A DNA stretch of 40,101 nt from a virus, in IMG/VR virus record IMGVR_UViG_3300016457_000312, positions 1-40,101 of that record. One strand, 5' to 3'. Under the pieces are notes generated by a model. It saw nothing but the letters and a program-made list of their open reading frames with translations. It had not been told where the DNA came from and ran no database searches. Made by a program: the position numbers and the translations under genes. Positions 1 to 36,362 of this stretch are shown piece after piece (position 1 is the first letter of the stretch; every line of letters starts with the position of its first letter).

Positions 1-91
1 AGCTTGCCGTGTTGGCGTCTACGGTAACGATTGCCGACAACGAGAACACAAATGAAACCAACGCTGTTGTGTTTTTGCCCAACGGTGACCT
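1..91. repeat. Left copy of the 91-bp direct terminal repeat (contig overlap)
   Basis: These 91 bases are identical to 40011-40101. Joining the two copies keeps the tail fibre reading frame open across the junction. The simplest reading is an assembly overlap of one k-mer length from a circular or circularly permuted genome. It could instead be a true short terminal redundancy. The unique genome length is then 40,010 bp. Confidence 0.95.
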
Positions 92-1257: not shown

Positions 1258-2274
1258 ATGATTAAAATACTTTGCATATTGTTGCTTTTAATTTTTCCAA
1301 ACAGTCTTTTTGCTTACGACATGGATTTGAATACGGGATTAGTAGCACCTGGAACTTGTACCAATGTAGATGATTTCACTAACCCTGATAATGCTAAGAT
1401 TTCGGATGACGCTTATGCTGACGGCTACAATGCTTTTGTTGGCAAGCCAACGCTGAGGTGTTCTAATTTTGGGTTTACTATCCCAACAGGTGCTACAATA
1501 GACTCTGTCCTTGTTTATGTCGAAGGTCATGGTGGTGATGGTGCTTCCTGCCAATTATTGGATGCTACGGGAGCTATTACGGGTGACAAGGTTGCATACA
1601 GTCTTCCAACCCACGATGATAGCGAGGTAACTGTACGGGGTACCACTAATGAATTGTGGAATGCTACGTGGACGGCAGCGGATATAAATGATTCGGATTT
1701 TGGTGTCCAACTAACGTGTCTTGGTGGTACTCATTTATATATTGATCTTGTTAGGATACAGATTTATTATTCAACATACCCCAGTGGTAACACGGGATTA
1801 GTAGCACCGGGAACTTGCACCAATGTAGCAGATTTCCCTAATCCAGATAATGCTAAAGTCTCAGATGACGTTTATACTAAAGGTTACGGTTTACTTATTC
1901 CGTCATTAGATTGCCAGAATTTTGGGTTCACGATACCGGCAGGTGCTACAATAGAGTTTGTTTTTGTTTATGTCGAAGGTTATGGTGGTACAAATGAATC
2001 TTGCAAATTATTGAATGCCAGTGGTGACGTAGTGGGCGAAACTGTTAGTTTCGAGGCAGGGGCCTCAGATAACGATACCGATGTCAGGGTGAGAGGTACC
2101 ACTAATGAATTGTGGAATGCTACGTGGACGGCAGCGGATATAAATGATTCAGATTTTGGTGTTAGGGTGGCCACTGGTGCATCCGACACCCTGTTTGTCG
2201 ATCTTGTCAGAATGCAAATTTATTATGATCCGCCCCATTCCGGTGGCCAAATCATTATGATAACGGGAGATTAA
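1258..2274 (+). CDS. Secreted two-repeat beta-sandwich-like protein
   Basis: The 338-residue protein begins with a clear Sec signal peptide: a Lys, a Leu/Ile-rich core and a probable cut after NSLFA. The rest consists of two tandem copies of a domain of about 150 residues, roughly residues 26-175 and 179-330. Each starts with TGLVAPGTCTNV, contains GFTIP(T/A)GATI, carries the shared block RGTTNELWNATWTAADINDS, and ends in VDLVR(I/M)QIYY. The terminal LVR-QIYY strand and the IP-GATI turn resemble beta-sandwich modules common in secreted and adhesive proteins. I do not recognise a named family. The gene follows the tail fibre by one base and is followed by the protease gene at 2276 after one base, so the genes are probably co-translated. 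A virion surface adhesin or a secreted host-surface-binding protein is possible; the function is unknown. Confidence 0.75.
   Translation: MIKILCILLLLIFPNSLFAYDMDLNTGLVAPGTCTNVDDFTNPDNAKISDDAYADGYNAFVGKPTLRCSNFGFTIPTGATIDSVLVYVEGHGGDGASCQLLDATGAITGDKVAYSLPTHDDSEVTVRGTTNELWNATWTAADINDSDFGVQLTCLGGTHLYIDLVRIQIYYSTYPSGNTGLVAPGTCTNVADFPNPDNAKVSDDVYTKGYGLLIPSLDCQNFGFTIPAGATIEFVFVYVEGYGGTNESCKLLNASGDVVGETVSFEAGASDNDTDVRVRGTTNELWNATWTAADINDSDFGVRVATGASDTLFVDLVRMQIYYDPPHSGGQIIMITGD
1333..2235 (+). repeat. Tandem intragenic duplication, about 459-bp unit
   Basis: The segment starting at 1333 (ACGGGATTAGTAGCACC) recurs at 1792 with few changes. A second block starting GGTACCACTAATGAATTG at 1639 recurs at 2095 and stays nearly identical for over 60 bases. 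The middle of each unit has diverged more. This indicates a duplication of a whole domain, with the conserved blocks kept by selection or gene conversion. Confidence 0.85.
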
Positions 2275-2275
2275 T

Positions 2276-3187
2276 GTGAAACAATTGATTTTATTATCAT
2301 TGTTGTTTACCACCCCTTCTTTAGCAATAGCTCAGGACGGACATAGGCCCGACAGCTGTAAATATGAATATGAACTGCGTTCAGACTACGAGGCCGACAG
2401 TCTAAGCGATGTCGTTATGGACACAATTTATGTGTTTGTCCATTCCTGTTTGAACGATGACAGCAGTGATGTTAACGGCCATTCCCTAAACGATTCGGCG
2501 ATTCAATTAACTTTTGATTCTATTAATGTTCATTTGCATGATGTTTATTTGCACATGAAGCACACTGTGATTATTCGTCGCAACACGGCTCTGTCTGAGT
2601 ATTTGGGGATACACGATGATGTTAATTACTATAAAACAACTGGGCGTATGATTGCCCTTTCCCCTGATTCCGTGTTTCAATTTTTGATTGGAGGGACGAC
2701 GGCTTCGACGCCGTTCCCCACAGACCCTGACACGAACGCACCATGGCAATACTACTTTGATTCTTTCGGGGGTAACTACAACACAAACATCCACGAATTT
2801 GGCCACGTTATGGATTTTAGGCACGTGAGTTGGGGTATAGTTAATGAACCCGCTTGTGCTGGATATTGGCGTGATTGCGATCACGAGCTACGTGAAGACC
2901 CGCACTGGTGGCAATCCCCAGATAGTCTGTCAAACTATAGGGGGGATATGTTGTCGTCGACTCCGGCGTGTCCTGGTTACAAGACCTCCGATAGGAGCCT
3001 TTGCGTTGCAACGGATACTATGTGTACGGATAGTGCTTTTCATGGTACAACATTGACTAATTATATGGTTGCCAGCCCCATTACGTCTGGGACGAATTTG
3101 GAGTTTACTCATCAACAATTAGCACAAATCAGGTGTAAGTTTTCCAACAATGTTTTGCTCTATAGGTTCGTAAGATGGTTCGAATAA
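2276..3187 (+). CDS. Secreted metzincin-like metalloprotease (M43 pappalysin-like)
   Basis: The 303-residue protein starts at GTG with a signal peptide (MKQLILLSLLF..., probable cut after SLAIA). It contains HEFGHVMDFRH at residues 173-183, giving the three histidines and catalytic Glu174 of the metzincin pattern HExxHxxGxxH, with Asp180 in place of the usual Gly. About 80 residues later NYM (262-264) fits the metzincin Met-turn, followed by EFTHQQLAQIR, which matches the FT-x-x-Q-x-x-x-(M/I)R ending of family M43. Cysteines between the two motifs also suit M43. The enzyme would be exported and cut proteins outside the cytoplasm, perhaps host surface proteins or a virion component. The last 13 bases overlap the next gene. 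The Gly-to-Asp change could mean altered or lost activity. Family assignment is by motif only. Confidence 0.65.
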   Translation: MKQLILLSLLFTTPSLAIAQDGHRPDSCKYEYELRSDYEADSLSDVVMDTIYVFVHSCLNDDSSDVNGHSLNDSAIQLTFDSINVHLHDVYLHMKHTVIIRRNTALSEYLGIHDDVNYYKTTGRMIALSPDSVFQFLIGGTTASTPFPTDPDTNAPWQYYFDSFGGNYNTNIHEFGHVMDFRHVSWGIVNEPACAGYWRDCDHELREDPHWWQSPDSLSNYRGDMLSSTPACPGYKTSDRSLCVATDTMCTDSAFHGTTLTNYMVASPITSGTNLEFTHQQLAQIRCKFSNNVLLYRFVRWFE

Positions 3188-3966
3188 TTGTTGTGGTAGT
3201 TGTTCTATGCCTGACGGCTCTATCTGTCTGTGGCGATGAAGTCAATCTGCAGAGGGGGGTAAGTATTTATGGATCAACCGAGGGTGCATGGTTAGTTGAG
3301 GGAATTAGTGATTGGGGGTTTGGCAAGGCTGGCATCTATGGGGTCAATAATGCCGACACAGTAAAGCGTGAGACCTTCATACTACGGTGGGATAGTTTGT
3401 CTAATGCTATTCCTGGTGGCGTGGTAATAACCCACGCCGAGTTGAAGTTGAAAACCTTTATGCCCAGTACCGGACATCCATTATTGGCGTGGAGTAGTTG
3501 TGAATCTCTTTTTGTAGCACCAATAGAACAGGATTGGCTTTTTGCAGATTCATCCGCTTGGCATGGAAACGATGGTGGCCCAACCTGGACAGGCAGGGAT
3601 ACTGCGTGGAACATTGTAGGCGAAGAATACTCCTTCAAGGGAGGGAAGCAATGGACCACGCCCGGAGTTTATCCATTGTCGGCTGACAGCAATGTTGGGG
3701 CCACTGAGATAGGGAGTGAGTCAAATAAGTGGTATACGATTACGCTTGATCCTGATGTTGTACAGAGATACATTGATGGAGACAATTATGGATTGGTTTG
3801 TTATATGGGGCAAACGGAGGATGCGTGGGAGGACGGGGACGCCCATCGGCGATGTTTTTATAGTCCCTATCACGACACTGTGGCTTGGCGACCAATTTTG
3901 ATATTAGAGTATTATATGCCTGGTGCAATGAAGGGTGTTACAATTTCGGGGGCTACAAAACAATGA
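3175..3966 (+). CDS. Secreted DNRLRE/CBM96-like beta-sandwich protein
   Basis: The 263-residue protein has a very hydrophobic N-terminus (MVRIIVVVVVLCLTALSVC); the Cys could suggest a lipoprotein, but LSVC is a poor lipobox, so cleavage type is uncertain. The mature part follows the pattern of DNRLRE-type domains: ILRWDSL with IPGGVVITHAELKLKTF (residues about 70-98), a Trp-rich middle with SSAWHGNDGGPTW, then WYTITLDPDVVQRYIDGDNYGLVCY and a final RPILILEYY strand. Such domains occur in secreted surface proteins and include carbohydrate-binding modules. Here it may bind host surface glycans. The gene overlaps the protease upstream by 13 bases and the next begins 7 bases downstream. The fold assignment is a pattern match and the ligand is unknown. 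Confidence 0.6.
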   Translation: MVRIIVVVVVLCLTALSVCGDEVNLQRGVSIYGSTEGAWLVEGISDWGFGKAGIYGVNNADTVKRETFILRWDSLSNAIPGGVVITHAELKLKTFMPSTGHPLLAWSSCESLFVAPIEQDWLFADSSAWHGNDGGPTWTGRDTAWNIVGEEYSFKGGKQWTTPGVYPLSADSNVGATEIGSESNKWYTITLDPDVVQRYIDGDNYGLVCYMGQTEDAWEDGDAHRRCFYSPYHDTVAWRPILILEYYMPGAMKGVTISGATKQ

Positions 3967-3973
3967 GGATATT

Positions 3974-4675
3974 ATGAAACTACACGAGAAAATACTAATT
4001 GTGCTGGCTGTGATTGTTGCGGTGTTCTGCATAGTTGCACCCAAGCTGTTTGCCGGTGATGCTGGGTGGGGGCAATCGTGGGATAAGGTCTATTGGCCCA
4101 TAAGCTACTGGAACCAGGGTGCGGAGTGTGATAGTGGAAAAGCGTACCTTGGGTATCCAAGCTCCTCGAATTATTACGATACAGTCGATCTGGCTCCCTA
4201 CACTTACGATAGCACGATTCTCTACTATGATAGTCTGTATTTGGACTCGACGGGCGTTCATAGGACTATGATTGTTTTCTACGAGCGGGGGGTCGCTACG
4301 CCGGATACGGTATATGGGGCATGGAATAATGCCGTTGCGTGGGATCGTCCCGCTCCACCGGCAAACGGGACGGCAAATATCTGTCGAGTCTTTGGTTATT
4401 TAGTCGACCTTGGGGCTGAATGGGTGGAACACGCAACGGTCGAAGCAACGTTGGGTAAGAAGGGGATTATTGACACTTGTGCAAATACGTTGGTTTTTGA
4501 TCGAACGGTAGCTGGTCCCACAAGCGGAGTGGGGGGGTATTTCTACATTGACCTGATCTATTCCAGTTGTATTGGCGGTGAGAAGTATAAGCTCACGGTT
4601 TCTAAGTACGGCGTTGGCGAGGAGAGTGTGAATATCGAAGTACCTGACCAAGATACATTGAGGGTGACGTGGTGA
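3974..4675 (+). CDS. Secreted protein of unknown function, beta-rich
   Basis: I choose the ATG at 3974, preceded by GAGGAT, over an upstream in-frame start inside the previous gene, because it directly begins a signal peptide (MKLHEKILIVLAVIVAVF, probable cut after PKLFA). The protein is 233 residues. The mature part is rich in Asp, Tyr and Thr, with segments such as YYDTVDLAPYTYDSTILYY. The last 100 residues (VFGYLVDLGAEWVEHATVEATL through KYKLTVSKYG) resemble a carboxypeptidase-regulatory or other Ig-like beta-sandwich. No enzyme motif is visible. The stop overlaps the start of the endolysin gene by one base (TGATG), so it sits at the end of the secreted cassette and just before lysis. It could be a virion appendage or a secreted factor. 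Confidence 0.65.
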   Translation: MKLHEKILIVLAVIVAVFCIVAPKLFAGDAGWGQSWDKVYWPISYWNQGAECDSGKAYLGYPSSSNYYDTVDLAPYTYDSTILYYDSLYLDSTGVHRTMIVFYERGVATPDTVYGAWNNAVAWDRPAPPANGTANICRVFGYLVDLGAEWVEHATVEATLGKKGIIDTCANTLVFDRTVAGPTSGVGGYFYIDLIYSSCIGGEKYKLTVSKYGVGEESVNIEVPDQDTLRVTW

Positions 4676-5120: not shown

Positions 5121-5414
5121 ATGAACATTTTTCACAAAATAGCGGGGGCCGTTATCGGTCCCATTATCCGAAAGGAGATAATGAAAGTGATAAAAGAATT
5201 TATTCAACCCATTCTGGACCTGATTAAAACCCTGGTTCAACCAGAAAAGGGGACCAAGTTCCTGATTACTCTGGCTGTTGTCGGTAGTGTGGCCTATCTC
5301 CACAAAGCCGGTATAGCCACAACCTCAAGCGATCTCGGACTGGTAGCACTTGCCATTGCCTACTACGGCTTTGACACTTTTCACAAACTCAAAAAAGACG
5401 GCGGTGGAAAATGA
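5121..5414 (+). CDS. Holin candidate with possible dual start
   Basis: The 97-residue protein has two hydrophobic segments, about 46-60 (FLITLAVVGSVAYL) and 70-86 (SDLGLVALAIAYYGF), and a short lysine-rich C-terminus (HKLKKDGGGK). Size, two membrane segments, charged tail and position between endolysin and the next lysis-region gene fit a small holin. A second in-frame ATG at 5181 is preceded by AAAGGAGATA, a better ribosome binding site than that of the first ATG although close to the codon. It would give a 77-residue form lacking the semi-hydrophobic first 20 residues. Dual starts that make holin and antiholin are known in other phages. The stop overlaps the next start (ATGA). Confidence 0.6.
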   Translation: MNIFHKIAGAVIGPIIRKEIMKVIKEFIQPILDLIKTLVQPEKGTKFLITLAVVGSVAYLHKAGIATTSSDLGLVALAIAYYGFDTFHKLKKDGGGK

Positions 5415-6990: not shown

Positions 6991-8082
6991 TTAAAATGGT
7001 TTCCGGCGAAACGATTTTCCGCCACTGTTTTTAGCTCCTACCACTGTCTCTCTCGGCAGGCGCATCCGCCCGATTCCGCAGATTGGGCATTTGATTGATT
7101 TCTTGACCAGATCGCCCGGCCCGACCTTAATGATCTTGGTCGCCGGACACCGGGCGCAATAGTATTTTAATGTTGGCATTTTGCTATCCCTTCCGCACTT
7201 GTGACTTATTTTTTTGATTATTCCATTTCCCAGTCTGACGGATTCACCAGCTTCGCCGCCGATGTGTCCGATGATGTCCTCGTCTCCTAAACTTGGTCTT
7301 CCTTGAAAGCTGTAGAACATCTCTAATAATAATTTATTTATCGCTTCCATATCTGGCGTGTCTGGAAGGGGGGACGTTTCCATGGCCTCCGCCGCCGCCT
7401 CAAAAAGTGCGTTGGCCTCACGTTTAACCTTTTCCATGCTCCACTTACCTTGCTTTATGTCCCGTAGCTCATCAGCATCATCGGTTCGGAACACTGTAAG
7501 TTCTCCTGTGTTCAAAAACTCAACACCCATCCTCAATAACCGGATCAAATGAGACGCGTTTTTTGTATCGTAACCATAATTATCCACCAATAGCTTGCGC
7601 TTGGTCCCCATATACCCCTGATACTTTTGCGCGGTCATCTTCTTTAATTGACTCTTGGCGTAACCAACAAATGAAGGATATGCCAGCTTAGTGGCAAATA
7701 AATGCCTATTGTTTATCAATAATTGGCCCTCGATTCTTATCGTTTCCATCATTTTTGGTATATTCCACAAAAAACCAAGCACATTGGGGTTGGCCTTTGT
7801 TAGCAATCGGACGAATTTCCTTAATTCATAAAATACAATGTCGTGATCTCGACCTTCGACTTTCTCCCAATACTCCATACCCTCGAAATGATCCAACCCG
7901 AAATAACAAGTTAGCGGGGCGACACATACCCCCATAAGATCAACGTCATCCGTACCCATCAGACTGTCTGGATGTATATACAGACCATGAGCAATGCTCC
8001 CCCTGTATCCATAGAGGATGGCACTGTTACGAGGCCGGAAACTAACCATAGAAGGTGAATTGTGACTTGTTTTTTTGCTCAT
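6991..8082 (-). CDS. RlaP-type (COG3541) nucleotidyltransferase with C-terminal zinc ribbon
   Basis: The 363-residue protein has the polymerase-beta-like nucleotidyltransferase core near its start: YGYRGSIAHGLY (residues 24-35, with G28-S29) and GTDDVDLMGV (43-52), whose Asp46 and Asp48 would bind metal. The following text (YELRKFVRLLTKANPNVLGFLW) matches the predicted nucleotidyltransferases of COG3541, the RNA-repair-associated DNA polymerase beta family RlaP. The last 60 residues add a zinc ribbon with Cys309/Cys312 and Cys332/Cys335 and a basic tail, which I do not expect in the plain family. It may add nucleotides to RNA ends, for example to mend tRNA cut by host defences, but the substrate is not known. 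The ATG overlaps the previous stop (ATGA) and has AAGGAG eight bases ahead. Confidence 0.75.
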   Translation of the reverse strand: MSKKTSHNSPSMVSFRPRNSAILYGYRGSIAHGLYIHPDSLMGTDDVDLMGVCVAPLTCYFGLDHFEGMEYWEKVEGRDHDIVFYELRKFVRLLTKANPNVLGFLWNIPKMMETIRIEGQLLINNRHLFATKLAYPSFVGYAKSQLKKMTAQKYQGYMGTKRKLLVDNYGYDTKNASHLIRLLRMGVEFLNTGELTVFRTDDADELRDIKQGKWSMEKVKREANALFEAAAEAMETSPLPDTPDMEAINKLLLEMFYSFQGRPSLGDEDIIGHIGGEAGESVRLGNGIIKKISHKCGRDSKMPTLKYYCARCPATKIIKVGPGDLVKKSIKCPICGIGRMRLPRETVVGAKNSGGKSFRRKPF

Positions 8083-9696: not shown

Positions 9697-11007
9697 TTAG
9701 ACCTCCGCTATTTCGTGCCATTGGCCGTAATTAAAGTTCATTTCGATCTTACCACCAAACTCACCCTCGCGGTTCTTGGCGATAATCAGATAGTGATGAT
9801 TGGGTTGCCCAAACGTGTGGTGGCAGAATATGACAATGTCGCTGTCCTGCTCAATCGACCCTGATTCCCGCAAGTGCGACAATTGTGGGGGATTGTCCGA
9901 TCTCGTGGCCTCCCGATTCAACTGGCTTAGTTGGATTACAACAATTTCAGGAATCGCCATAGCGAGGGTTTTGAGGCTACGGCTGATAGACGCCACTTCG
10001 CGCTCACGGCTCTTATTGCCGACCGCCGCTTCCATGAGTTGGAGGTAGTCGACAATAACCAGTCCCAACAACGGGTCTTTTGCTTTCAAGGCCCGGACAT
10101 TCGCCAGTAGTCTCTGTGGGGTTACGCTTGGGTTGGTGTCAACATACAGTCTGTATTGTGAGGTCCGGTGTGTGGCTCTGGTGAGTTTGTCGTATTCATC
10201 ATCCGACAACCGCCCCTTGCGTTTCATTTTCATCGAATCGACATTAGCCTCTACGCAGTGAAGCCGTTCGCTTAAGGACATCTTGGGCATCTCAAGAGAC
10301 AATAGAGCTACGGACTTACCAGACATAGCCACTCGCTGGCCTATCTGCAGGGCAAGCTGACTTTTCCCAAAGGACGGTCGGGCCGCAATCGTACATACCG
10401 CCCCGTAAGGGATGCCGAGGATTTTCCTATCTAATCCGCCAAAACCGGTTCTCAGGCAATGTTTCCAGTATTCTCCCGACTGATAATCTCCTACACGCTC
10501 AAGAAAGGGGACGTTGTATTTTGATATCAGCTCAAAACCGCCACTATATTCGCTCCGCCCGATGTCAAAAGCCGCCTGTTGCCAGTCGTCTATTATTTTC
10601 GATGTGGACAACTCCATAGCGTAGGCCGACGATATGGTCTCGGTGCAAATAGAAATCAACCTTCGCAATCTATAGCGATCCTCGACAATCTTGGCGTATC
10701 GGAGGACATTGGCTGTTGACGCCACACTTTCAATCAATTCAGCCAGATAAACCCGCCCGCCGACCTCTATAAGATCACCCAGCTTTTGCAAATAACTAAT
10801 TATAGAGATGAGATCGGTCGGTTCTGATTTTCTATGTAAGTCAAGCATGGCCTCATATATTATGCGGTGTTTTGGCGCGTAGAAACACATATTCTCGGCC
10901 AAATAGGGGATTATTCCTTCTAATACATCGGGGTTCTTCAGGATTGACCCCAGAACGGCGCGCTCGGCCTCAATCGCCTGTGGTGGCTGTAATCTATCTT
11001 GGGACAC
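9697..11007 (-). CDS. dnaB: Replicative DNA helicase, DnaB family
   Basis: The 436-residue protein matches full-length DnaB. The N-terminal domain (EAERAVLGSILKNPDVL, residues 13-29) is followed by a linker and the RecA-like motor. The Walker A is ARPSFGKSQ at about 208-216, the Walker B is LGLVIVDYLQLM, and the C-terminal LSHLRESGSIEQDSDIVIF is the DnaB H4/arginine-finger region. It unwinds the phage genome at forks as a hexamer. It lies directly behind the replisome organiser, overlapping it by 14 bases and starting at GTG, the usual loader-helicase pairing. No polymerase or primase gene is seen, so it probably joins the host replisome. Confidence 0.95.
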   Translation of the reverse strand: MSQDRLQPPQAIEAERAVLGSILKNPDVLEGIIPYLAENMCFYAPKHRIIYEAMLDLHRKSEPTDLISIISYLQKLGDLIEVGGRVYLAELIESVASTANVLRYAKIVEDRYRLRRLISICTETISSAYAMELSTSKIIDDWQQAAFDIGRSEYSGGFELISKYNVPFLERVGDYQSGEYWKHCLRTGFGGLDRKILGIPYGAVCTIAARPSFGKSQLALQIGQRVAMSGKSVALLSLEMPKMSLSERLHCVEANVDSMKMKRKGRLSDDEYDKLTRATHRTSQYRLYVDTNPSVTPQRLLANVRALKAKDPLLGLVIVDYLQLMEAAVGNKSREREVASISRSLKTLAMAIPEIVVIQLSQLNREATRSDNPPQLSHLRESGSIEQDSDIVIFCHHTFGQPNHHYLIIAKNREGEFGGKIEMNFNYGQWHEIAEV

Positions 11008-11875
11008 TATCGTTTTCCAGGTCTATGCCAACTATCATTTTCTCATTCCGATAGCCTTCAAACAAGTTTGAGTAAAGCGTAGTGGGCCTTAGGTATAGCT
11101 CCCTTTCGGGATCGTTAAGCCACTTCCTTGCTTTTACTTCGTGAACATACTTGAAATCTTCTAACCTAAACCCTTCTTTCCACCGTGCTTTAATCATTGA
11201 CCTGGTTACTTCGGTTTGAGGTCGGTAGTTCTTTCCCGTTATTTGATTTAAGTGGGAAATTATTTCCTTGTACGGGATTGCATCGTCGGGCTTGCCCGAC
11301 AATACTCTTTCTTTTTCTTTAGGAAGAGGAAGAGGAAGAGGAAGAGGAAGAGGAAGAGGGGCATCAAGTAAGTCCTTGTCCCCCTTGGCCCTTTTCAGTT
11401 CAACGACTTTTTTACTTTTTCCTAAGTCAGTTATATTTTTCTCTCCTCCTTTCGGGTTGGGAGCATAGGCCCCGCATTGCTGATTAGGCTTTTCCGCATA
11501 CTGTAAGTCCTTGTCCCCCTTGGCCCATCTCACTTCGGCGGCTTTTCTGCTTTTTTCGGAACGCTCCGGCCCAAAAAACAAAAACCCGTTATGGGTGCGC
11601 CAGTCGTGCACGACAAGTAATCCGTTCCCATGTTTGTCAAGCAATCTGATGCTTAATAGGGTCTCCACGAGGGCACCTTGTTCGCCGTGCCACTTGGCCG
11701 CTCTTTCAACGTCAACGGTATTCATTCCGGTCAACTTACCCTTCGGTCGATATTTTCCCGTAAATGCCAATAACCTCAAGTGGGACAGTACGGCATCGGC
11801 CCCAAGTTCGGCCAATAAAGCCTGAACCTTAAAGTGGTCGAAATAATCAAAGGCCAACCTAAAATCATTAGCCAT
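10994..11875 (-). CDS. DnaD-like replisome organiser / helicase loader
   Basis: From ATG 11875 the product is 293 residues; an in-frame start at 11902 adds nine. The N-terminal part (ANDFRLAFDYFDHFKVQALLAELGADAV through LLVVHDWRTHNGF) resembles the winged-helix start of phage replisome organisers. The C-terminal part, about residues 200-285 (IPYKEIISHLNQITGKNYRP, IKARWKEGFRLEDFKYV, YLRPTTLYSNLFEGY), closely follows the conserved phage C-terminal domain TIGR02220/PF09524. Such proteins bind the origin and bring the helicase. The two are joined by a low-complexity linker with six Leu-Pro pairs and a repeated AKGDKDL segment. The downstream overlap with dnaB supports a joint role. Confidence 0.8.
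   Translation of the reverse strand: MANDFRLAFDYFDHFKVQALLAELGADAVLSHLRLLAFTGKYRPKGKLTGMNTVDVERAAKWHGEQGALVETLLSIRLLDKHGNGLLVVHDWRTHNGFLFFGPERSEKSRKAAEVRWAKGDKDLQYAEKPNQQCGAYAPNPKGGEKNITDLGKSKKVVELKRAKGDKDLLDAPLPLPLPLPLPLPKEKERVLSGKPDDAIPYKEIISHLNQITGKNYRPQTEVTRSMIKARWKEGFRLEDFKYVHEVKARKWLNDPERELYLRPTTLYSNLFEGYRNEKMIVGIDLENDSVPR
11322..11359 (-). repeat. Hexanucleotide tandem repeat encoding (Leu-Pro)n
   Basis: On the plus strand the unit is GGAAGA, about six copies. On the coding strand it gives alternating Leu and Pro in the linker of the replisome organiser. Because the unit is six bases, slippage changes linker length by two residues without a frameshift. Confidence 0.9.
11368..11526 (-). 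repeat. 24-bp perfect direct repeat in the organiser linker
   Basis: The 24 bases at 11368-11391 are identical to 11503-11526, an offset of 135 bases or 45 codons. Flanking text is also similar (KSRKAAEVRWAKGDKDL versus KSKKVVELKRAKGDKDL), so a segment of about 20 residues was duplicated in frame. Confidence 0.85.
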
Positions 11876-12014
11876 ACTACCTCCGAATAAACGCCCCCAC
11901 ATGGAGGTCGTGAACCACGTGGGCGGAATACGCCCGACAATCCACGCAGGGGCTTTCTATTATGTCTGATTAGCATAGTTCACGTTCTCATTATGCCATT
12001 TTCAACAACACAAG
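11876..12014 (-). promoter_or_regulatory. 139-base leader between the ATPase and organiser genes
   Basis: Genes in this arm otherwise touch or overlap, so a 139-base gap is notable. It holds GGGCG (11921-11925) pairing with CGCCC (11931-11935), and CCCAC/GTGGG arms further on, just ahead of the organiser start. A 66-codon ORF crosses it, but most of that ORF lies in the wrong frame of the organiser. A leader with an internal promoter or attenuator for the replication genes is possible. I see no clear promoter boxes. Confidence 0.3.
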
Positions 12015-13268
12015 TCAAGAGGTTTCTTTAGAGGCCTCACCTTTCATTTTAGCCGTTTCAACCTGGGCACGGTATTTCTCAACAACGTGGTCTCTGTATG
12101 CGGTGAGCTTTTCCAGCCCTGCCGATACAATATCTTCGGTAAAGTCGTCACCCAAATACTTGCCTCGCGCGGACACTATTACCTTCTTTTGCTGGTAAAC
12201 GTGTTCTTCCCCGCCAAGTATTTTCTTAACCACCGGCACGATTTCGACTAAACGCCGGTTTCCCTCCTCAAGTTGTTCGATTGTCATTTCGGTAACAGCC
12301 GTGTCCGACGTTTCGCCGTAGTAGGCGTGTTTCATCAAAGACAGTCTCATGGCTTTCGCGTCTTTGGTGGTTCCGGCGGCAATCTCATCCAGTAAAGCCT
12401 TGTTGCGCTCAAGCACTATCTCCCGCTGTTTCCGGTCAGACCGCCTATCCTCGTCCGCCTCAATCCCGTCAAAGTCGCTCTGGGCATTGGATTCACCCGG
12501 TTCGACAACATCGGTCAACAAAAGTTCCACCACGGGGCGGAAGTCCTCGTAGGTTGGGTTGCGAAACGTTCGACCGTCGATTAGGTTGGCGCGATCTTTA
12601 ATCACAGTAGCCTCGCGCCAAATCTCTTTTTTCTCTCGGTTCAAGATTTCCTCAAACCGCTCCATGCGAATTAGTACGTCGGGTTCATAGGCCGTATCCC
12701 CCTCGACCTTCATTTTGACCCCGGTTTTGATTAATTCTTTTTTACCGGTAGCCTCGTTTACCTCGTGGTCGTAGACAAAGCCCTCTCTGCCGGTGAATAG
12801 GATATGGTAACGCCCCATAACCAAACGGTTTGAATACTCACGTTTCCAATAAGGTTTGATAAACCCCCAATCCTGAAATTGGAGATAGTTGCGACCCTTC
12901 TTTTGCTGGTAGGCATTAAGGAACTCTTCCCATACGTGAGTGATTGAGTCAATGAAAAGAATGTCCGACTCGCCAGAATCGCAGAAGTCCATAGTCTGCG
13001 TCAAGTCAACCAGAGACCGGCTGTCTTTCAGCAGGACCTTGATGCCCCTTTGTCGAAAAAACGGTTTTAGGAACTTGGCCGACCTTTCCGTGTCGTAGAT
13101 AACGATGGGCTTAGATGAGCCGATATGTTCATACAGGCCCACCGCGAGCAATGCGAGGGTATAGCTTTTCCCCGAACCGGCGGCTCCCTCCGCCGCCATC
13201 TTAAAAAACGGCGTAGTATTTTCCAAATCCGTGAAAAACTCCTTATTCATTTGGTTGTGTCCCGGCAT
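12015..13268 (-). CDS. RecA-fold AAA ATPase (AAA_24 / Sak4-like)
   Basis: The 417-residue protein has Walker A EGAAGSGKS at residues 27-35 and Walker B ILFID at 103-107 followed by SITHVWEE, the layout of phage AAA_24 ATPases related to the Sak4 recombinases. After the core, residues 120-260 include YHILFTGREG and VIKDRANLIDGRTFRNPTYEDF. The C-terminal 170 residues are helical and acidic with no motif I know, making the protein longer than minimal Sak4. Single-strand annealing or recombination in replication is the likely role. The start at 13268 has AAGGAG seven bases ahead; a later ATG at 13250 overlaps the upstream stop but lacks such a site. Neighbouring zinc-ribbon genes may be partners. 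Confidence 0.7.
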   Translation of the reverse strand: MPGHNQMNKEFFTDLENTTPFFKMAAEGAAGSGKSYTLALLAVGLYEHIGSSKPIVIYDTERSAKFLKPFFRQRGIKVLLKDSRSLVDLTQTMDFCDSGESDILFIDSITHVWEEFLNAYQQKKGRNYLQFQDWGFIKPYWKREYSNRLVMGRYHILFTGREGFVYDHEVNEATGKKELIKTGVKMKVEGDTAYEPDVLIRMERFEEILNREKKEIWREATVIKDRANLIDGRTFRNPTYEDFRPVVELLLTDVVEPGESNAQSDFDGIEADEDRRSDRKQREIVLERNKALLDEIAAGTTKDAKAMRLSLMKHAYYGETSDTAVTEMTIEQLEEGNRRLVEIVPVVKKILGGEEHVYQQKKVIVSARGKYLGDDFTEDIVSAGLEKLTAYRDHVVEKYRAQVETAKMKGEASKETS

Positions 13269-13471
13269 TCAATAACTCCTTTATCAATAAGTTTCAATTC
13301 TTCCCTACAAAGGGGGCAAACCTCTCGCCCGTTGGCTTCCCTGCCATTGTCCGTGTTCCATCCTGGCGGGTACAGCGTCCTATTGCCACACCTACCACAA
13401 ACGAGAGGCTCAACTCCCATCGACATTATTTCTCGTGTGGTCTGATCTATGATTTCCCGATCAAACTCCAC
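13247..13471 (-). CDS. Zinc-ribbon protein
   Basis: The 74-residue protein has VCGRCGNRTLYPPGW and VCPLCREELKLI, a C-x2-C pair and a second C-x2-C pair about 24 residues later. This is a one-zinc ribbon. It starts at GTG inside the end of the upstream gene, with AAGGGG ahead, and overlaps the ATPase gene by 22 bases. A nucleic-acid or protein-binding role beside the recombination ATPase is plausible. Confidence 0.6.
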   Translation of the reverse strand: MEFDREIIDQTTREIMSMGVEPLVCGRCGNRTLYPPGWNTDNGREANGREVCPLCREELKLIDKGVIECRDTTK

Positions 13472-13838
13472 TCAAGTCCCCTTCAGCTATGGCATCGAGT
13501 TTCTTGGTGGCCCGCACTCGCTTGGAGGCGTTACGGAGGGTGTCCGTGTTTGTTTGTAAATGTCTAATGAGGACCTTCTTAGCCTGCGAGAAACTTTTGA
13601 ATATCATCTTGTTGGTAAGAGTTTGGTCGCCCCTGAACACGGGGATCAAGGCACTATATCCGCCATCGTGTTTTACGTACCACCCAAGAATGGTGCTGAC
13701 AATAGTCTTCTCATATTCCTCGTACAGTTTGTCTTTATCTTCGCCGGTTAGCAATTTGCCAGCCACCCGAACGTGGTAGGCTTTAAGTTCATCCGAGAAC
13801 TTAACTTCAGCCGAAAACTTGTCTTTGAGCGCACTCAT
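13461..13838 (-). CDS. Hypothetical early protein
   Basis: The 125-residue basic protein starts at ATG 13838 with AAAGGA upstream. It begins SALKDKFSAEVKFSDELKAYHVRVAGKLLTGEDKDKLYEEYE and ends with a Lys/Arg-rich helix (ASKRVRATKKLDAIAEG). No motif is recognised. It is the first gene after a structured 114-base gap and overlaps the zinc-ribbon gene, so it may belong with the recombination set (zinc ribbon and ATPase). Confidence 0.55.
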   Translation of the reverse strand: MSALKDKFSAEVKFSDELKAYHVRVAGKLLTGEDKDKLYEEYEKTIVSTILGWYVKHDGGYSALIPVFRGDQTLTNKMIFKSFSQAKKVLIRHLQTNTDTLRNASKRVRATKKLDAIAEGDLSGV

Positions 13839-13870
13839 AATACTTTCCTTTGTTGTGTCGTTTTGTTTGA

Positions 13871-13942
13871 GTCGGGCGGTGTCTCTTTCGAACGGAGGCT
13901 AATCCTTTCGCTTTTGACGTTTGGCTTATTGCCCCGCCCGAC
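13871..13942 (-). promoter_or_regulatory. 9-bp inverted repeat in the leader of the 13838 gene
   Basis: GTCGGGCGG at 13871-13879 is the exact reverse complement of CCGCCCGAC at 13934-13942. The arms are 54 bases apart and nearly fill the 114-base gap between 13838 and 13953. In the leftward transcript they would form a stem closing a large loop ahead of the gene. No T run follows, so it is not a typical terminator. Confidence 0.45.
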
Positions 13943-14747: not shown

Positions 14748-15587
14748 TTAGAAATTTTCATTTTTTACCTTACTTGTCTTCGGTTCATAGAATGGCCAAT
14801 CAATCTTACGGAAGATTCCGCCTTTGATGCGAGCTTTTTGACCGTCACAGTCCAGTAAATCTTCACGTTTAAACTTCACTTCCCACAGTTGGGCTGTTGG
14901 GCTTACACCAAAGTAAATCAGAGCTTGAGCTTGGGTTGTGACGTGGATGCCTTTGACACAGGTCCCTAACCCTGACTGTGGTAAATTCTCTTCGCGATAT
15001 TCTCCTTCTGGTTGGGTGAACTTAGAGTTGTGTCTCCCCTTGCCGTTTTCCTGTGTTGATCTATAAGCTGTTGCGAACCCATCTTCGCCAAAGGTAATCC
15101 CAATAGCGGATGCCATAAACAAGAGTCGGTTGTTTGTTTTGTCTTGCCAGTCGCCACGATACCAGGTGCCGTTGTGCCAGACGCCACCAAGCCAGACGCC
15201 ACTGCGCCAGATGCCACCTTGCCAGATGCCACCTTGCCAGACGCCCCCACGCCATATTCCGTCATGCCAGCGACCACCACGCCATATTCCGTCAATCCAA
15301 ACACCGTCGCGCCATTCCCCGCCGTACCAGGTGCCATTGCACCAGCCACCACCGTGCCAGTGACCATTGTACCAGTGACCATCGTACCAGCCACCACCGC
15401 GCCAGAGGCCATCATGCCAGGTGCCACCAAGCCAGATTCCATCATGCCAAACACCGTCGCGCCATTCCCCGCCGTGCCAGACGCCACTGTGCCAGATCAC
15501 TTTACCGTCAACGACCGAAACCTCTTCGTTGCTCACTTTGGCTTCCCTCAGCCAGTCGGGAGCGTCGGTTAGGTCTTTAATTTTCAT
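14748..15587 (-). CDS. Trp-Gly pentad-repeat protein
   Basis: From ATG 15587 the product is 279 residues; an ATG two codons earlier has too short a spacing to GGAG. It begins KIKDLTDAPDWLREAK. Residues about 30-150 are 24 tandem pentads of the form x-W-x-x-G (for example VWHGG, EWRDG, VWHDG, IWLGG), which should stack into an elongated beta structure. The C-terminal 130 residues form a separate domain (GIHVTTQAQALIYFGVSPTAQLWEVKF, KARIKGGIF) of a kind attached to such repeats in phage proteins of unknown function. Its place near the start of the early arm, not among virion genes, suggests an intracellular role, possibly binding or blocking a host factor. Confidence 0.65.
   Translation of the reverse strand: MKIKDLTDAPDWLREAKVSNEEVSVVDGKVIWHSGVWHGGEWRDGVWHDGIWLGGTWHDGLWRGGGWYDGHWYNGHWHGGGWCNGTWYGGEWRDGVWIDGIWRGGRWHDGIWRGGVWQGGIWQGGIWRSGVWLGGVWHNGTWYRGDWQDKTNNRLLFMASAIGITFGEDGFATAYRSTQENGKGRHNSKFTQPEGEYREENLPQSGLGTCVKGIHVTTQAQALIYFGVSPTAQLWEVKFKREDLLDCDGQKARIKGGIFRKIDWPFYEPKTSKVKNENF
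15147..15503 (-). repeat. 15-bp imperfect tandem repeats coding for the Trp-Gly pentads
   Basis: About 24 units of 15 bases in phase with the gene. On the plus strand each contains a CCA (Trp on the coding strand) at the same phase, with variations of GCCAGACGCC-like text. The array leaves several other frames open, which creates false ORFs on the plus strand. Confidence 0.9.
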
Positions 15588-15675
15588 CGTCATTTCTCCA
15601 GATATAAGGTCTCAACATCATCCACAAAAAGGCCAAGAACAGCCCGAACCAGATTCCACCGATAAAAACCAGCAT
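15577..15675 (-). CDS. 32-residue single-span membrane peptide
   Basis: From ATG 15675, with GAGG eight bases ahead, the product is 32 residues: one membrane span (MLVFIGGIWFGLFLAFLWM) followed by a tail RPYIWRNDDEN. A longer in-frame reading from 15765 runs through the gene at 15677-15850 in another frame and is not supported. The 3' end overlaps the start of the Trp-Gly repeat gene by 11 bases. Confidence 0.6.
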   Translation of the reverse strand: MLVFIGGIWFGLFLAFLWMMLRPYIWRNDDEN

Positions 15676-18508: not shown

Positions 18509-18587
18509 CATTCTTTTTATCACTCGTCTTCAAGTGGGGTGGCTCAATGAGAAAGCCAGCGCCCCAGGGAGGGCGATATTGAGATGA
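18498..18587 (+). CDS. 29-residue coupled small protein
   Basis: The frame from ATG 18498 encodes MRNDILFITRLQVGWLNEKA plus nine residues. GAGGAG lies seven bases upstream, an excellent site. It overlaps the end of the previous gene, and its stop forms an ATGA with an in-frame ATG of the next gene at 18584. The N-terminal half is partly hydrophobic. The function is unknown. Confidence 0.5.
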   Translation: MRNDILFITRLQVGWLNEKASAPGRAILR

Positions 18588-18625
18588 ACAACAAGACAAC
18601 AAAAACGTACAACGGGAGACTGATA

Positions 18626-19747
18626 ATGAAGAACGTTAGAGCACCTTTAACAGCTTTGGTTGTACTGGCAGTGGTCGGGGCAATCTGGGCTGTGGCAATA
18701 GCGGGTGATATTAGACAGGACCGATTGACGCTGGCCCACGTTATAGATCAAACTGGGGATTCGGCAAACATCTTGAAGTTGAATGTCTTATCGGCATTGG
18801 ACAGTTTTACCTATGTTGACTCAATTTGGTTTGAGACGGACACTACTATCGTCACGTGGACCTCACACCCAACGACCCGGCGGTTAGTCTTGACTCTCGA
18901 CACAACGGAGACTTACTGTTGTTCGGTCGATTGCGGCACGAACATCTACGGGTTTGAGTTCGTTTGCCCCAACGGGGCCACTTACGATGCTGATAGTTTG
19001 GCCGATGACTTGGTGGATTCGTTCACCAACGTAGCAGGGATGAAGGATACTGTATTAGCTGAGGATTCGTCCTCTTATCTCAAGATTGTTTCAAAAATAG
19101 CTCAGATAGATTTAGAGGGTGACGCCCGTTGGACGTTGAAGGTTGATCCGGTGGCTGAGATCGCTGAAGCTGACTCAACCTTCACCACTAAGGCGATGCT
19201 TTGTGATTCGTTGGCGGCCGCATTTAACGGTGAGGCAACGTTGGCTGATATGCTGGTTGCCGCTAATAGCGGGGATACGGTTATCACTTTGACGGGCAGG
19301 TCTGGGTGGAAGGTGAACATCTTCGTCGGGGACACAGCCCAAACCGCCACTGAAACTCAGGCGGAGAAAGCATCTAAGTCTCGGTTCGCCGACACGTTCC
19401 CGATATTCCCGATGCTTACGGATGGTTTCAATACGCTTCAGGGGACAGTGATCCTTCGGGCGTCGGGATACACTGGGGCGGGGTATGGGTTATCGGACTC
19501 CGGCATGGTTAAATTGATGAGTCGTGTGGGGCCGTATGACGGCACGCCTACTGGTGGGACATGGACCTTGATAGATTCCGACACCTCGGCGGGTCTGCCT
19601 ACGACCCTTACGGTTGCAGTTGAAGATAGTGCTACATATTTTGGTGAGATGCTATATCTGGTTGTCTCGGTCATAGATACAGCAACCGACACCGCTGTTA
19701 CGGCCAATCACGATATCGACTATTGGTTTATGAGGGTAGAGGACTGA
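18626..19747 (+). CDS. Exported protein of unknown function before the portal gene
   Basis: I choose ATG 18626, with GGGAG seven bases ahead, over the in-frame ATG 18584. The 373-residue product then begins with a signal peptide (MKNVRAPLTALVVLAVVGA..., probable cut after AVAIA). The mature part is Asp/Thr/Ser-rich with strand-like pieces (SFTYVDSIWFETDTTIVTW, TTRRLVLTLDTTETYCC, YDADSLADDLVDSFTNVAG) and a C-terminal beta-rich region ending DIDYWFMRVED. Paired Cys (CCSVDCG) fit an oxidising compartment. It sits between terminase and portal, where head decoration or fibre-like proteins can occur. No family is recognised. Confidence 0.65.
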   Translation: MKNVRAPLTALVVLAVVGAIWAVAIAGDIRQDRLTLAHVIDQTGDSANILKLNVLSALDSFTYVDSIWFETDTTIVTWTSHPTTRRLVLTLDTTETYCCSVDCGTNIYGFEFVCPNGATYDADSLADDLVDSFTNVAGMKDTVLAEDSSSYLKIVSKIAQIDLEGDARWTLKVDPVAEIAEADSTFTTKAMLCDSLAAAFNGEATLADMLVAANSGDTVITLTGRSGWKVNIFVGDTAQTATETQAEKASKSRFADTFPIFPMLTDGFNTLQGTVILRASGYTGAGYGLSDSGMVKLMSRVGPYDGTPTGGTWTLIDSDTSAGLPTTLTVAVEDSATYFGEMLYLVVSVIDTATDTAVTANHDIDYWFMRVED

Positions 19748-25118: not shown

Positions 25119-25783
25119 CAAAGGGAAACCTCAAGAAAGATTTGCTGTACTTGGCAAGACAGACCGATATGGCCGAGGATGATCTTGATGCTCATGTTGA
25201 GTTTTGCATTGAACGTGGGCTGAACAGTTTCTGGAACGCTCATGGCTGGACGTGGAGTACGCGGCCGTATTCTCTGAGTATATCGAGCGAAGCGGCCGCT
25301 TACGAGCTACCAGAAGACTTCAGGGGTATCAGGGCGGTTAGAGAGAAAGATAGCTCCTATGGTGGGGCAATAATCTACGTCCCGAAAGAGCGGTTCGACA
25401 GGGAGTACCCGTACCCTACCGCATCGACAAGCGGGCGACCGAGGGTCTGTACGGTCTACTACGACCGGGAAGAAGCCCTGAATTATATACAATTCTTTCC
25501 TGTGCCTGAATCCGGGGATACAATCTATATTGAGATGTACACGACTGTCGGCAATGTGGATAGTGTGCCTCATGGTTTTGAGTCGGGGTTGATGGCTGAC
25601 GTTGAGAGATTTCTTTACAAATTAGGAACGCCCGCCAGATTTTCAGCGCAACAATCGTTTGATACCGAGTTGAGGCGAATGATTCGTCTGGACGGTCCGT
25701 TTAAGGGCAAGCTAATAGAAATAATTACAGGATCAGTCGGCCCAACCAGGGGCCAATCGTTCGGGGAGTATTTTAGCGGATGA
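25115..25783 (+). CDS. Head-tail adaptor (tail tubular protein A-like)
   Basis: The 222-residue protein starts at GTG 25115 in the previous stop. A helical start (EDDLDAHVEFCIERGLNSFWNAHGWTW) is followed by YSLSISSEAAAYELPEDFRGIRAV and YIQFFPVPESGDTIYIEMYTTVG, the strand pair typical of tail tubular A/adaptor proteins of short-tailed phages, then a helical end. These proteins sit in a ring under the portal. No signal peptide is present, unlike in the next two genes. Confidence 0.65.
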   Translation: MTKGNLKKDLLYLARQTDMAEDDLDAHVEFCIERGLNSFWNAHGWTWSTRPYSLSISSEAAAYELPEDFRGIRAVREKDSSYGGAIIYVPKERFDREYPYPTASTSGRPRVCTVYYDREEALNYIQFFPVPESGDTIYIEMYTTVGNVDSVPHGFESGLMADVERFLYKLGTPARFSAQQSFDTELRRMIRLDGPFKGKLIEIITGSVGPTRGQSFGEYFSG

Positions 25784-26445
25784 GAATACTACAATTCATT
25801 CTGTGTTTGACGTTGGTGGTTGGTTCTATCGGTGCCCAGACGGCCCCGGAGCTTGACTCTATTGCGGCGGCGGTAGTGGAACAAGTTGGGGCCGTGACCG
25901 GCTCGACCGTTACACACGAGATCAACCGGGCGTACTTACAAGTGACGACTTCTTACCCCGCCTATGAGGTTGTTGACACCGTGACTATCGACAGCGCGTC
26001 GGGGCGAGTAGCGTTGCCCGCTGATTACGACCGCATGATAGCCGTCGATCTCATAGCCGCCGACGAGGAAGATGACAAGGCGCGGGTGCCGTTACGTAAG
26101 GTGCCAACTGACACTACTTCGGCCAGTATTATCAGGGCAAGCATGGTTGTTTCTAATGAGGCGGATCAAAAGTATTATCAGGTGACGGCGCGGTATCTTT
26201 ACACCTATCCCCGCTGGGTCAGGTCCGATACGGCGACATTTGAAGTCCGGTATTATGCTGTCGGTGCGAAATTGACATCAGGGGCAGACACGATTATGGT
26301 GGCCTTTGCTTATCGAAATGCCGTGTTCTACTTGGCGTGCGCCGAGTATCAGGCGCGGCGCGGTCAGTTTAACGACGCTCGGTTTTACACGGCTCTTTGT
26401 GAACAGCGTTACGGTCCCCTGCAACGCCGGAGAGATGAAGAATGA
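25780..26445 (+). CDS. Second adaptor-like protein with Sec signal peptide
   Basis: The 221-residue protein starts with MRILQFILCLTLVVGSIGA then QTAP, a convincing signal peptide. The mature part repeats the order of the adaptor family: helix (EINRAYLQVTTSYPAYEVVDT), RVALPADYDRMIAVDLI, a strand pair near TARYLYTYPRWVRSDTATFEVRYY, and helices with YRNAVFYLACAEYQARRGQFNDARFY. It may be a duplicated adaptor or a tail ring protein. ATGA overlaps link it to both neighbours. An exported head-tail connector is unexpected. Confidence 0.6.
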   Translation: MRILQFILCLTLVVGSIGAQTAPELDSIAAAVVEQVGAVTGSTVTHEINRAYLQVTTSYPAYEVVDTVTIDSASGRVALPADYDRMIAVDLIAADEEDDKARVPLRKVPTDTTSASIIRASMVVSNEADQKYYQVTARYLYTYPRWVRSDTATFEVRYYAVGAKLTSGADTIMVAFAYRNAVFYLACAEYQARRGQFNDARFYTALCEQRYGPLQRRRDEE

Positions 26446-29580: not shown

Positions 29581-30597
29581 ATGGGGCGAGTAACCACAGG
29601 CGGGACAATTGGTGATGTGCTGAAGCGGACGGGACAAGACTTGCCCCGCCTGGCTATGACGCTGGCTGATTTGCAGTACAGGAAAGAACAGCAGGAGCGT
29701 CAGGGTACTCTTGACACTCAGAACTTGGAACATCAGGGGGTGATGGAGCAACAGGGACAGGAACGCAACGACTTGGCGGCTCAAGGTGCAAAGATAGCGC
29801 AACAGAACGCCGACCTGAGGTTTGCTCAAGCGCAGAAGCAGATGCTTGGCGCAATGGGGGGACAACCACAAGAAACGCAACAGTTCGAGAATGAAAAAGA
29901 TTACAACCTCTATTTACGGCTTAATCGCCCCGATCAGTATTGGAGTGATAAGGAACGAGAGGCCAGTATTAAGCGAGGGGCAGGTAAAACAACCAAGCCT
30001 GCCAGCGTTGTTCCTGACATTGAGAAGTTCAGGGGTCAAGAGGCTGAGATAGAGAAGAATATCCAGAACTATCTTGGTGGCCCCAACGTAACGAGTGTCG
30101 ACGCCCAAGGTCAGCCGATTCCCGTCTATCGAGAAGATTCTCCGTTACAGGCGATTGACGACTACGGTCAGCCCCGATGGAAAGAAGAGCCGCCGACATT
30201 AGAGAATTATCTTGGTCGGCAGGCGGCCGATACGAGCATATTCCTACGCCAAACAGCGGGACAGCCACCAGAGGCGAAAACTCGGTACGGTGAGGCTCTC
30301 AGTGAGGCTATGCCTGGCATGGAACCTTGGATTCGGGAATACTTGTACGGAGAGGAACCTGAGCCAACTCAACCAACTCGACAAGAAATAGGCAGGGAGC
30401 AAGCGGGGACTGACGCCAGATCAGCGGTCGAATGGCAACGAGGGCAACAGGGGCCAACGCCCCTTGCTCCAGCTTGGCAAGATTGGGGTTTCAATTCAAA
30501 AGAGGAAGCTATAGCGGATTTGGAGGCGAGTTACAAGGCTGGTGAGATCCCCAAGATTCAATATGAACAATACCTGAAGATGCTCGGAGTGCAATAG
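29581..30597 (+). CDS. Gln-rich internal virion protein candidate
   Basis: The 338-residue protein is helical and rich in Gln, Arg and Glu (LADLQYRKEQQERQGTLDTQ, RFAQAQKQMLGAMGG), a coiled-coil stretch at about residues 25-95, followed by Pro-rich, likely disordered segments. The position between a small internal protein and the 1835-residue protein fits an ejection-core component. Its stop shares a base with the next GTG (TAGTG), suggesting coupled, stoichiometric synthesis. Confidence 0.5.
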   Translation: MGRVTTGGTIGDVLKRTGQDLPRLAMTLADLQYRKEQQERQGTLDTQNLEHQGVMEQQGQERNDLAAQGAKIAQQNADLRFAQAQKQMLGAMGGQPQETQQFENEKDYNLYLRLNRPDQYWSDKEREASIKRGAGKTTKPASVVPDIEKFRGQEAEIEKNIQNYLGGPNVTSVDAQGQPIPVYREDSPLQAIDDYGQPRWKEEPPTLENYLGRQAADTSIFLRQTAGQPPEAKTRYGEALSEAMPGMEPWIREYLYGEEPEPTQPTRQEIGREQAGTDARSAVEWQRGQQGPTPLAPAWQDWGFNSKEEAIADLEASYKAGEIPKIQYEQYLKMLGVQ

Positions 30598-36104: not shown

Positions 36105-36362
36105 ATGGAAAGCACTCGCATGGATCGTCGAATACAATACGAAGCCGAAGTTAAGAACCTCAGCGACCGAGAGATTAGAGAGCGGACGTGGGTTGCGTTG
36201 CGTGTTTTGGACTATTACGTCACAGCGGAAATCAACGGTAAGGTCAAAGTCTTGTGGGGTGACAGGTTTAGGCGATTGGCCGTGTGGCGAGTGACTAAGA
36301 TTGTTGGCGGGGTTATAGCCGGTATTGGTTCCCTTATTATTGCGGGATGGAAATTATTATGA
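36105..36362 (+). CDS. Small protein with C-terminal membrane span
   Basis: The 85-residue protein starts directly after the giant gene's stop (TAAATG); an ATG at 36120 is an alternative. The first 60 residues are charged and helical (RIQYEAEVKNLSDREIRERTWVALRVLDYYV); the end is one membrane span (IVGGVIAGIGSLIIAGWKLL). Its stop overlaps the tail fibre start (ATGA). It could be a membrane-facing ejection accessory or a holin-like protein. Confidence 0.55.
   Translation: MESTRMDRRIQYEAEVKNLSDREIRERTWVALRVLDYYVTAEINGKVKVLWGDRFRRLAVWRVTKIVGGVIAGIGSLIIAGWKLL

Follow-up and report, generated by a model that had tools for sequence, protein, structure and literature searches.

A probable exported, pappalysin-like metzincin encoded among fibre-associated and lysis genes of an IMG/VR virus

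Mirolysin of Tannerella forsythia is a pappalysin (family M43) with a signal peptide and a cysteine soon after it. Its zinc motif, HExGHxxDxRH, has Asp231 in place of the canonical Gly; in the zymogen, this Asp contacts Trp46 of the pro-segment, and it forms a pair with Arg233 once the enzyme is activated (PDB 6r7v, 6r7w; PMC6949598). The Met-turn of mirolysin is NYM, and the enzyme also has an FTxxQ helix. In the M43 enzymes ulilysin, PAPP-A and PAPP-A2, a conserved Asp belongs to the pocket that gives Lys/Arg specificity. Textbook phage lysis is carried out by holins, peptidoglycan hydrolases and spanins, and a secreted protease encoded with the lysis genes would add a step to it. In Listeria, the phage-derived secreted metzincin Mtz of the Mtz-Tim pair acts through a TIMP-like lipoprotein; cleavage of this partner raised lysis sensitivity and virion yield, and virion release rose about fivefold (PMC8235301). 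In the present study, we analysed a viral gene whose predicted product resembles Mtz as a phage-encoded, secreted metzincin, but no TIMP-like partner was recognised in its virus. A literature search, with most subscription journals outside its coverage, found no paper on phage pappalysins.

The window, that is, the whole stretch of 40,101 nucleotides that was analysed, is the IMG/VR virus record IMGVR_UViG_3300016457_000312. It carries an exact 91-base terminal repeat (window 1-91 and 40011-40101); a full genome of about 40.0 kb is therefore probable, and the fibre pieces at the two ends belong to a single gene. An ORF at 2276-3187 encodes 303 aa; its GTG start follows the stop of the upstream gene by one base. 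The codon-usage score per codon was +0.07 in this frame and between -0.27 and -0.63 in the five other frames; the other late genes scored +0.08 to +0.20. Because the codon usage was frame-specific, the ORF was taken as a real gene. The ORF, signal peptide, HEFGHVMDFRH, NYM and FTHQQLAQIR described in an earlier note on this DNA were all present in the protein. The features of the gene and its product are as follows.

2265-2269, plus strand: probable ribosome-binding site GGGAG, 6 bases before the GTG (sequence)
2276-3187, plus strand: gene for a predicted exported pappalysin-like metzincin, 303 aa (ORF, motifs, codon usage, profile and fold comparisons)
2276-2332, plus strand: predicted Sec signal peptide, residues 1-19, MKQLILLSLLFTTPSLAIA, with cleavage between AIA and Q20 (crude heuristic scan of the sequence)
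2357-2359, plus strand: Cys28 (DSC), candidate cysteine switch (QDSC in the matching position of many phage M43 proteins; pappalysin mechanism, PMC6949598)
2792-2824, plus strand: zinc-binding motif HEFGHVMDFRH, residues 173-183, with mirolysin-type D180-x-R182 (compare HEVGHWLDLRH of Tannerella forsythia locus L269)
2945-2962, plus strand: D224-MLSS-T229, equivalent of the mirolysin calcium ligands Asp247 and Thr252 (alignment A2; PMC6949598)
3059-3067, plus strand: Met-turn N262-Y-M264 (sequence)
3104-3133, plus strand: C-terminal M43-type hallmark FTHQQLAQIR, residues 277-286 (sequence)

The zinc motif H173EFGHVMDFRH183 matches the metzincin consensus HExxHxxGxxH/D in the Asp variant known from mirolysin, and downstream of it lie the Met-turn and a helix of the M43 type, FTxxQxx(R)(M/I). 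In alignment A2, C201, C243 and C250 matched M43 cysteine positions of the lower sub-domain, with the fourth Cys of the two M43 disulfides missing, and the beta-1 His and D-x4-TP also matched. D224 and T229 lined up with ligands of the double calcium site of M43. Other pappalysin features were absent from the protein in this alignment. In the predicted mature chain, Cys28 is the ninth residue, but Lys comes next, and the Cys-Gly dipeptide of pappalysins is lacking. The Tyr-switch two residues after the Met (Tyr286 in mirolysin) is replaced by Ala266, and the Asp of DTP is missing. The S1' Asp that gives Lys/Arg specificity (Asp289 in mirolysin) is likewise absent, with no Asp between M264 and F277. 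Identity was about 17-21% to mirolysin, from which the protein also differs by a long insert before the Met-turn, and 13-20% to ulilysin, PAPP-A and PAPP-A2. The loss of the Tyr-switch and the pocket Asp would suit an exported protein that has ceased to be a protease and retains the fold as a binding or blocking protein, but the window protein has kept every zinc ligand, the catalytic Glu and the Met-turn, and matrix metalloproteinases are active without a Tyr-switch. We consider such a loss of function highly improbable. The protein is probably a real, exported and active metzincin, and by its sequence it would be a far outlier of the pappalysins, without the specificity-setting pocket residue. 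Without the Asp of the basic pocket of pappalysins, the protein is predicted to prefer residues other than Lys/Arg at P1'.

The Asp180 that had been singled out as an oddity proved to be an ordinary variant. Mirolysin has been described with Asp instead of Gly (PMC6949598), and many M43s share this substitution: HExGHxxDLRH was found in many M43 and archaemetzincin loci, and an M43 protein of a viral contig (L213, Pfam E 3e-17) has HEIGHALDLYH. The idea that Asp180 marks a new kind of site was rejected, since Asp occupies this position in mirolysin and in many other metzincins. Both Asp180 and Arg182 are retained in the window protein, and the counterpart of mirolysin Arg302 is Gln284.

No match to the protein was found in Pfam, PHROG, NCBIfam or PDB sequences, and the Pfam M43 model (PF05572) gave none at E values up to 10. 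Neither the viral and genome contigs nor the cultured phages yielded a relative, and there were no real homologues in 82 genomes of the KSB1 locus phylum or 64 of the Latescibacteria locus phylum. By these searches, the protein is an orphan. Metzincins were then collected by DNA patterns and built into family profiles; the initial pattern scans may have picked up some cellular contigs or frames open by chance. The M43 profile (39 domains) gave a score of 59.6 (P 1.9e-8) over 158 columns reaching the C-terminal helix. For the five other groups (matrixins with Asp, matrixins with Gly, archaemetzincins and two further groups), the alignments covered 16-29 columns around the zinc motif only. Thus, in the comparison with M43 and other metzincins that had been proposed as a check, only our own M43 profile, out of six, aligned beyond the motif. 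When the sequence was shuffled with the motif kept, the mean score was 45.4 and the maximum of 100 was 55.0, versus 59.6 observed; when the motif was masked, the score dropped to 18.1, inside the shuffle range. These results suggested that most of the M43 sequence signal comes from the zinc motif itself. The C-terminal hallmark (N/H-x-M, 8-14 residues, F/Y-T/S-x-x-Q-x-x-x-M/I) turned up in 6 of 300,000 sequences made by shuffling the C-terminal part, with a spacing that was set with the window protein in view; this ending is not put down to chance.

Other metzincin families were considered and rejected. For matrixins (M10), there was no Pfam match, the alignment spanned 29 columns, and the Met lies 81 residues after the third His rather than soon after it. 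The archaemetzincin (M54) pattern HCx4CxM...CxxC was absent, with H183-V-S-W instead, and the alignment was limited to 18 columns. The two further groups aligned within the zinc motif alone. A closer kinship to the phage M43 clade described below found no clear support, as the score of 32.3 compared with a shuffle maximum of 31.4 and no closeness was seen beyond the motif. A metzincin of an undescribed family, resembling M43 through the shared clan motif and a similar C-terminal helix, would agree with the motif-masked score, the missing pappalysin features and the orphan status in all collections searched. The NxM...FTxxQ...I hallmark, the three cysteines at M43 positions, D-x4-TP, and the profile and fold rankings speak against this explanation, which we regard as unlikely. 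M43 is the best reading among metzincins, although its strength in sequence is modest. The earlier proposal of an exported M43-like metzincin therefore holds as the best reading, with several M43 features missing. Because there was no Pfam M43 match, no Tyr-switch and no S1' Asp, we call the protein pappalysin-like and do not file it as an M43 member.

To model the fold, single-sequence prediction was unusable (pLDDT 29), and a model built on alignment A2 reached a mean pLDDT of 55 and a pTM of 0.61. It was best at beta-1, the backing helix, beta-2, the active-site helix and the C-terminal helix. Foldseek placed PAPP-A and PAPP-A2 first, one of them at E below 0.001, and promirolysin eleventh. 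VIA-align returned 17 pappalysin entries with Z of 9.7-12.0, followed by ADAM-type enzymes at up to 7.7. The model thus ranked PAPP-A, mirolysin and ulilysin at the top. Since alignment A2 consists of M43 domains, which leans the model that way, the ranking serves as a consistency check and not as independent proof of a metzincin fold. The structure prediction suggested by the earlier note agrees with that fold at this level of confidence.

Pappalysins had been supposed to be rare in phages, but an M43 clade turned out to be carried by at least 61 IMG/VR contigs, while being almost absent from cultured phages, in which a single fragmentary match was found. In L163, a Pfam M43 gene is flanked by the genes of a virion structural protein (phrog_10356) and of a portal (phrog_33693), and another lies upstream of a terminase in L140. 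A scan with an alignment of these two enzymes yielded the 61 contigs with an exported Pfam-M43 pappalysin (L364-L424), comprising 29 distinct proteins at 90% identity. Of the 61 loci, 59 encode the Met-turn NHMDYY, FTxGQ and a zinc motif in which position 8 is Gly or Ser. All 53 proteins with a long enough N-terminus had a hydrophobic leader, and a crude pattern found a Cys a few residues behind it in 44 of them, typically as QDSC. A TerL of phrog_6681 was detected in 14 of the 18 M43-bearing records searched, so the contigs of this clade, to which the TerL test applies, were taken as tailed phages. The M43 gene often closes the structural module. It is preceded by proteins of about 2,400 aa and about 142 aa and sometimes also by a 95-aa protein with one TM plus an exported protein of 104-106 aa, and it is followed by a DUF5675 protein or convergent genes. 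The window protein resembles this clade as the product of a phage gene with a signal peptide and a Cys soon after it, in a late module near small membrane-protein genes. The clade differs in its clear Pfam M43 match, position 8, dockerin-like tail and phrog_6681 TerL. Dockerin-like C-termini were noted in the clade, to which L163 and L140 also belong, and the exported 104-106-aa neighbour is conserved in several contigs. These results suggested that phages probably secrete pappalysin-type proteases around the time of cell exit. A different kind of metzincin also recurs in viral contigs: matrixin-like proteins of about 150-185 aa with HEFGHxxDxPH (L057, L059-L061, L065-L068, L073, L076, L077, L080), of which the two tested match Pfam M10. 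L066 and L067 (HEFGHVxDLPH) have a zinc motif with Asp nearly identical to that of the window protein but match Pfam M10, and their Met-turn follows the motif by about 10 residues versus about 80.

The genes around the protease were examined for its likely role.

36347-40101, plus strand: tail fibre or spike with a right-handed beta-helix and a signal peptide, continuing at 1-1256 across the terminal repeat
1258-2274, plus strand: exported 338-aa protein, between fibre and protease
3175-3966, plus strand: exported 263-aa protein, overlapping the 3' end of the protease gene by 13 bases
3974-4675, plus strand: exported protein with a homologue in the relative virus G001 at 27% identity
4669-5100, plus strand: NlpC/P60 hydrolase, probable endolysin (Pfam E 6.6e-11)
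5121-5414, plus strand: 97-aa membrane protein, holin-like by sequence and position, with no family match

Genes overlap from the fibre region through NlpC/P60 to the holin-like gene, after which a further exported protein begins at 5411. The protease had been described as lying directly downstream of the tail fibre; a separate gene, for the 338-aa protein, stands between them. That protein contains two tandem domain copies with near-identical DNA stretches. The place near the fibre holds roughly, but the slot is not conserved. In G001, the only close relative virus (terminase identity 56%), fibre, exported proteins and holin-like gene follow one another as in the window. The protease slot there holds a protein with a CBM96 domain, and neither a protease nor an NlpC/P60 gene was detected in this single, possibly incomplete record. 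A terminase alignment gave only distant further relatives, and no cultured phage had the 905-aa tail-type protein. Since G001 keeps the gene order without the protease, the protease is an accessory gene of the window lineage. Absence from close relatives had been named as grounds for doubting the protease. Such an absence was seen in the single relative, where it points to an accessory gene and not to a false protease, and we rejected it as a refutation, as G001 is one record with 56% terminase identity that may be incomplete.

Export of virion proteins is not expected in tailed phages, and eight other gene products of the window, including homologues of structural proteins, show apparent signal peptides. 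Apparent Sec signal peptides occur on structural or tail homologues and the fibre (25780-26445, 26442-29159, 36347-40101 and 18584-19747) and on the G001 (L354) counterparts at 10245-10940 and 10937-13906. A signal peptide therefore does not exclude a virion part, and the protease could sit on the virion near the fibre and clear host surface or matrix proteins at adsorption, with the beta-helix fibre clearing polysaccharide. The position of the gene behind the fibre and amid exported proteins is compatible with such an entry enzyme. We consider it doubtful: the protein is a lone catalytic domain in which no structural or docking domain was recognised, and the nearest relative keeps the fibre without a protease homologue. 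The abundance of signal peptides would also accommodate a maturation protease that trims the exported proteins of the phage (the fibre, the tail-type proteins and the products of 1258, 3175 and 3974) in the periplasm. Because G001 exports similar structural proteins and has no detectable protease homologue, maturation seems independent of the protease in this group, and this role appears improbable.

We propose, with a probability of about 0.5, that the gene encodes an exported late zinc metallopeptidase of pappalysin-like (mirolysin) type that cleaves proteins in the envelope or at the surface of the dying cell and helps lysis and virion exit. Judging from the gene order, the protease would be made late, in one run with the fibre-associated and lysis genes, and would leave the cytoplasm through Sec. 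H173, H177 and H183 would bind zinc, E174 would act as general base, M264 would lie in the Met-turn, and D180 would pair with R182 as in mirolysin. Cys28 may impose latency that ends with cleavage of the pro-segment. Outside the inner membrane, the protease would most likely cut envelope or surface proteins, helping the holin and endolysin to open the cell and the virions to leave. The phage M43 enzymes, which are exported and whose genes come after the structural module, next to DUF5675 genes and genes for small membrane proteins, are consistent with a late exported role, and the Listeria Mtz is a precedent for a phage-derived secreted metzincin that increases virion release. G001 manages without the protease gene. 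A broader and more tentative suggestion is that exported pappalysins form a recurrent late module of uncultured phages beside holin, endolysin and spanin, attacking host envelope proteins for lysis and release. Such a module would have been gained more than once, in the L364-L424 clade and separately in the window virus. The clade makes the question testable, as its proteins are clear M43 members with intact sites. It is the more general result, and the single window gene is of moderate interest.

Three further loci of the window were noted. The 1835-aa protein at 30597-36104 contains a 2H phosphoesterase-type domain (PF13563, E 3.2e-9, residues 504-621) and a HEIAH motif at residues 725-729. 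At 14748-15593, a 281-aa ORF has a long run of WxxGxWxxG-type repeats, inside which an overlapping frame of 173 aa is open. An RlaP-family nucleotidyltransferase (PF10127, E 2.5e-19) is encoded at 6991-8082 on the opposite strand, near the replication genes.
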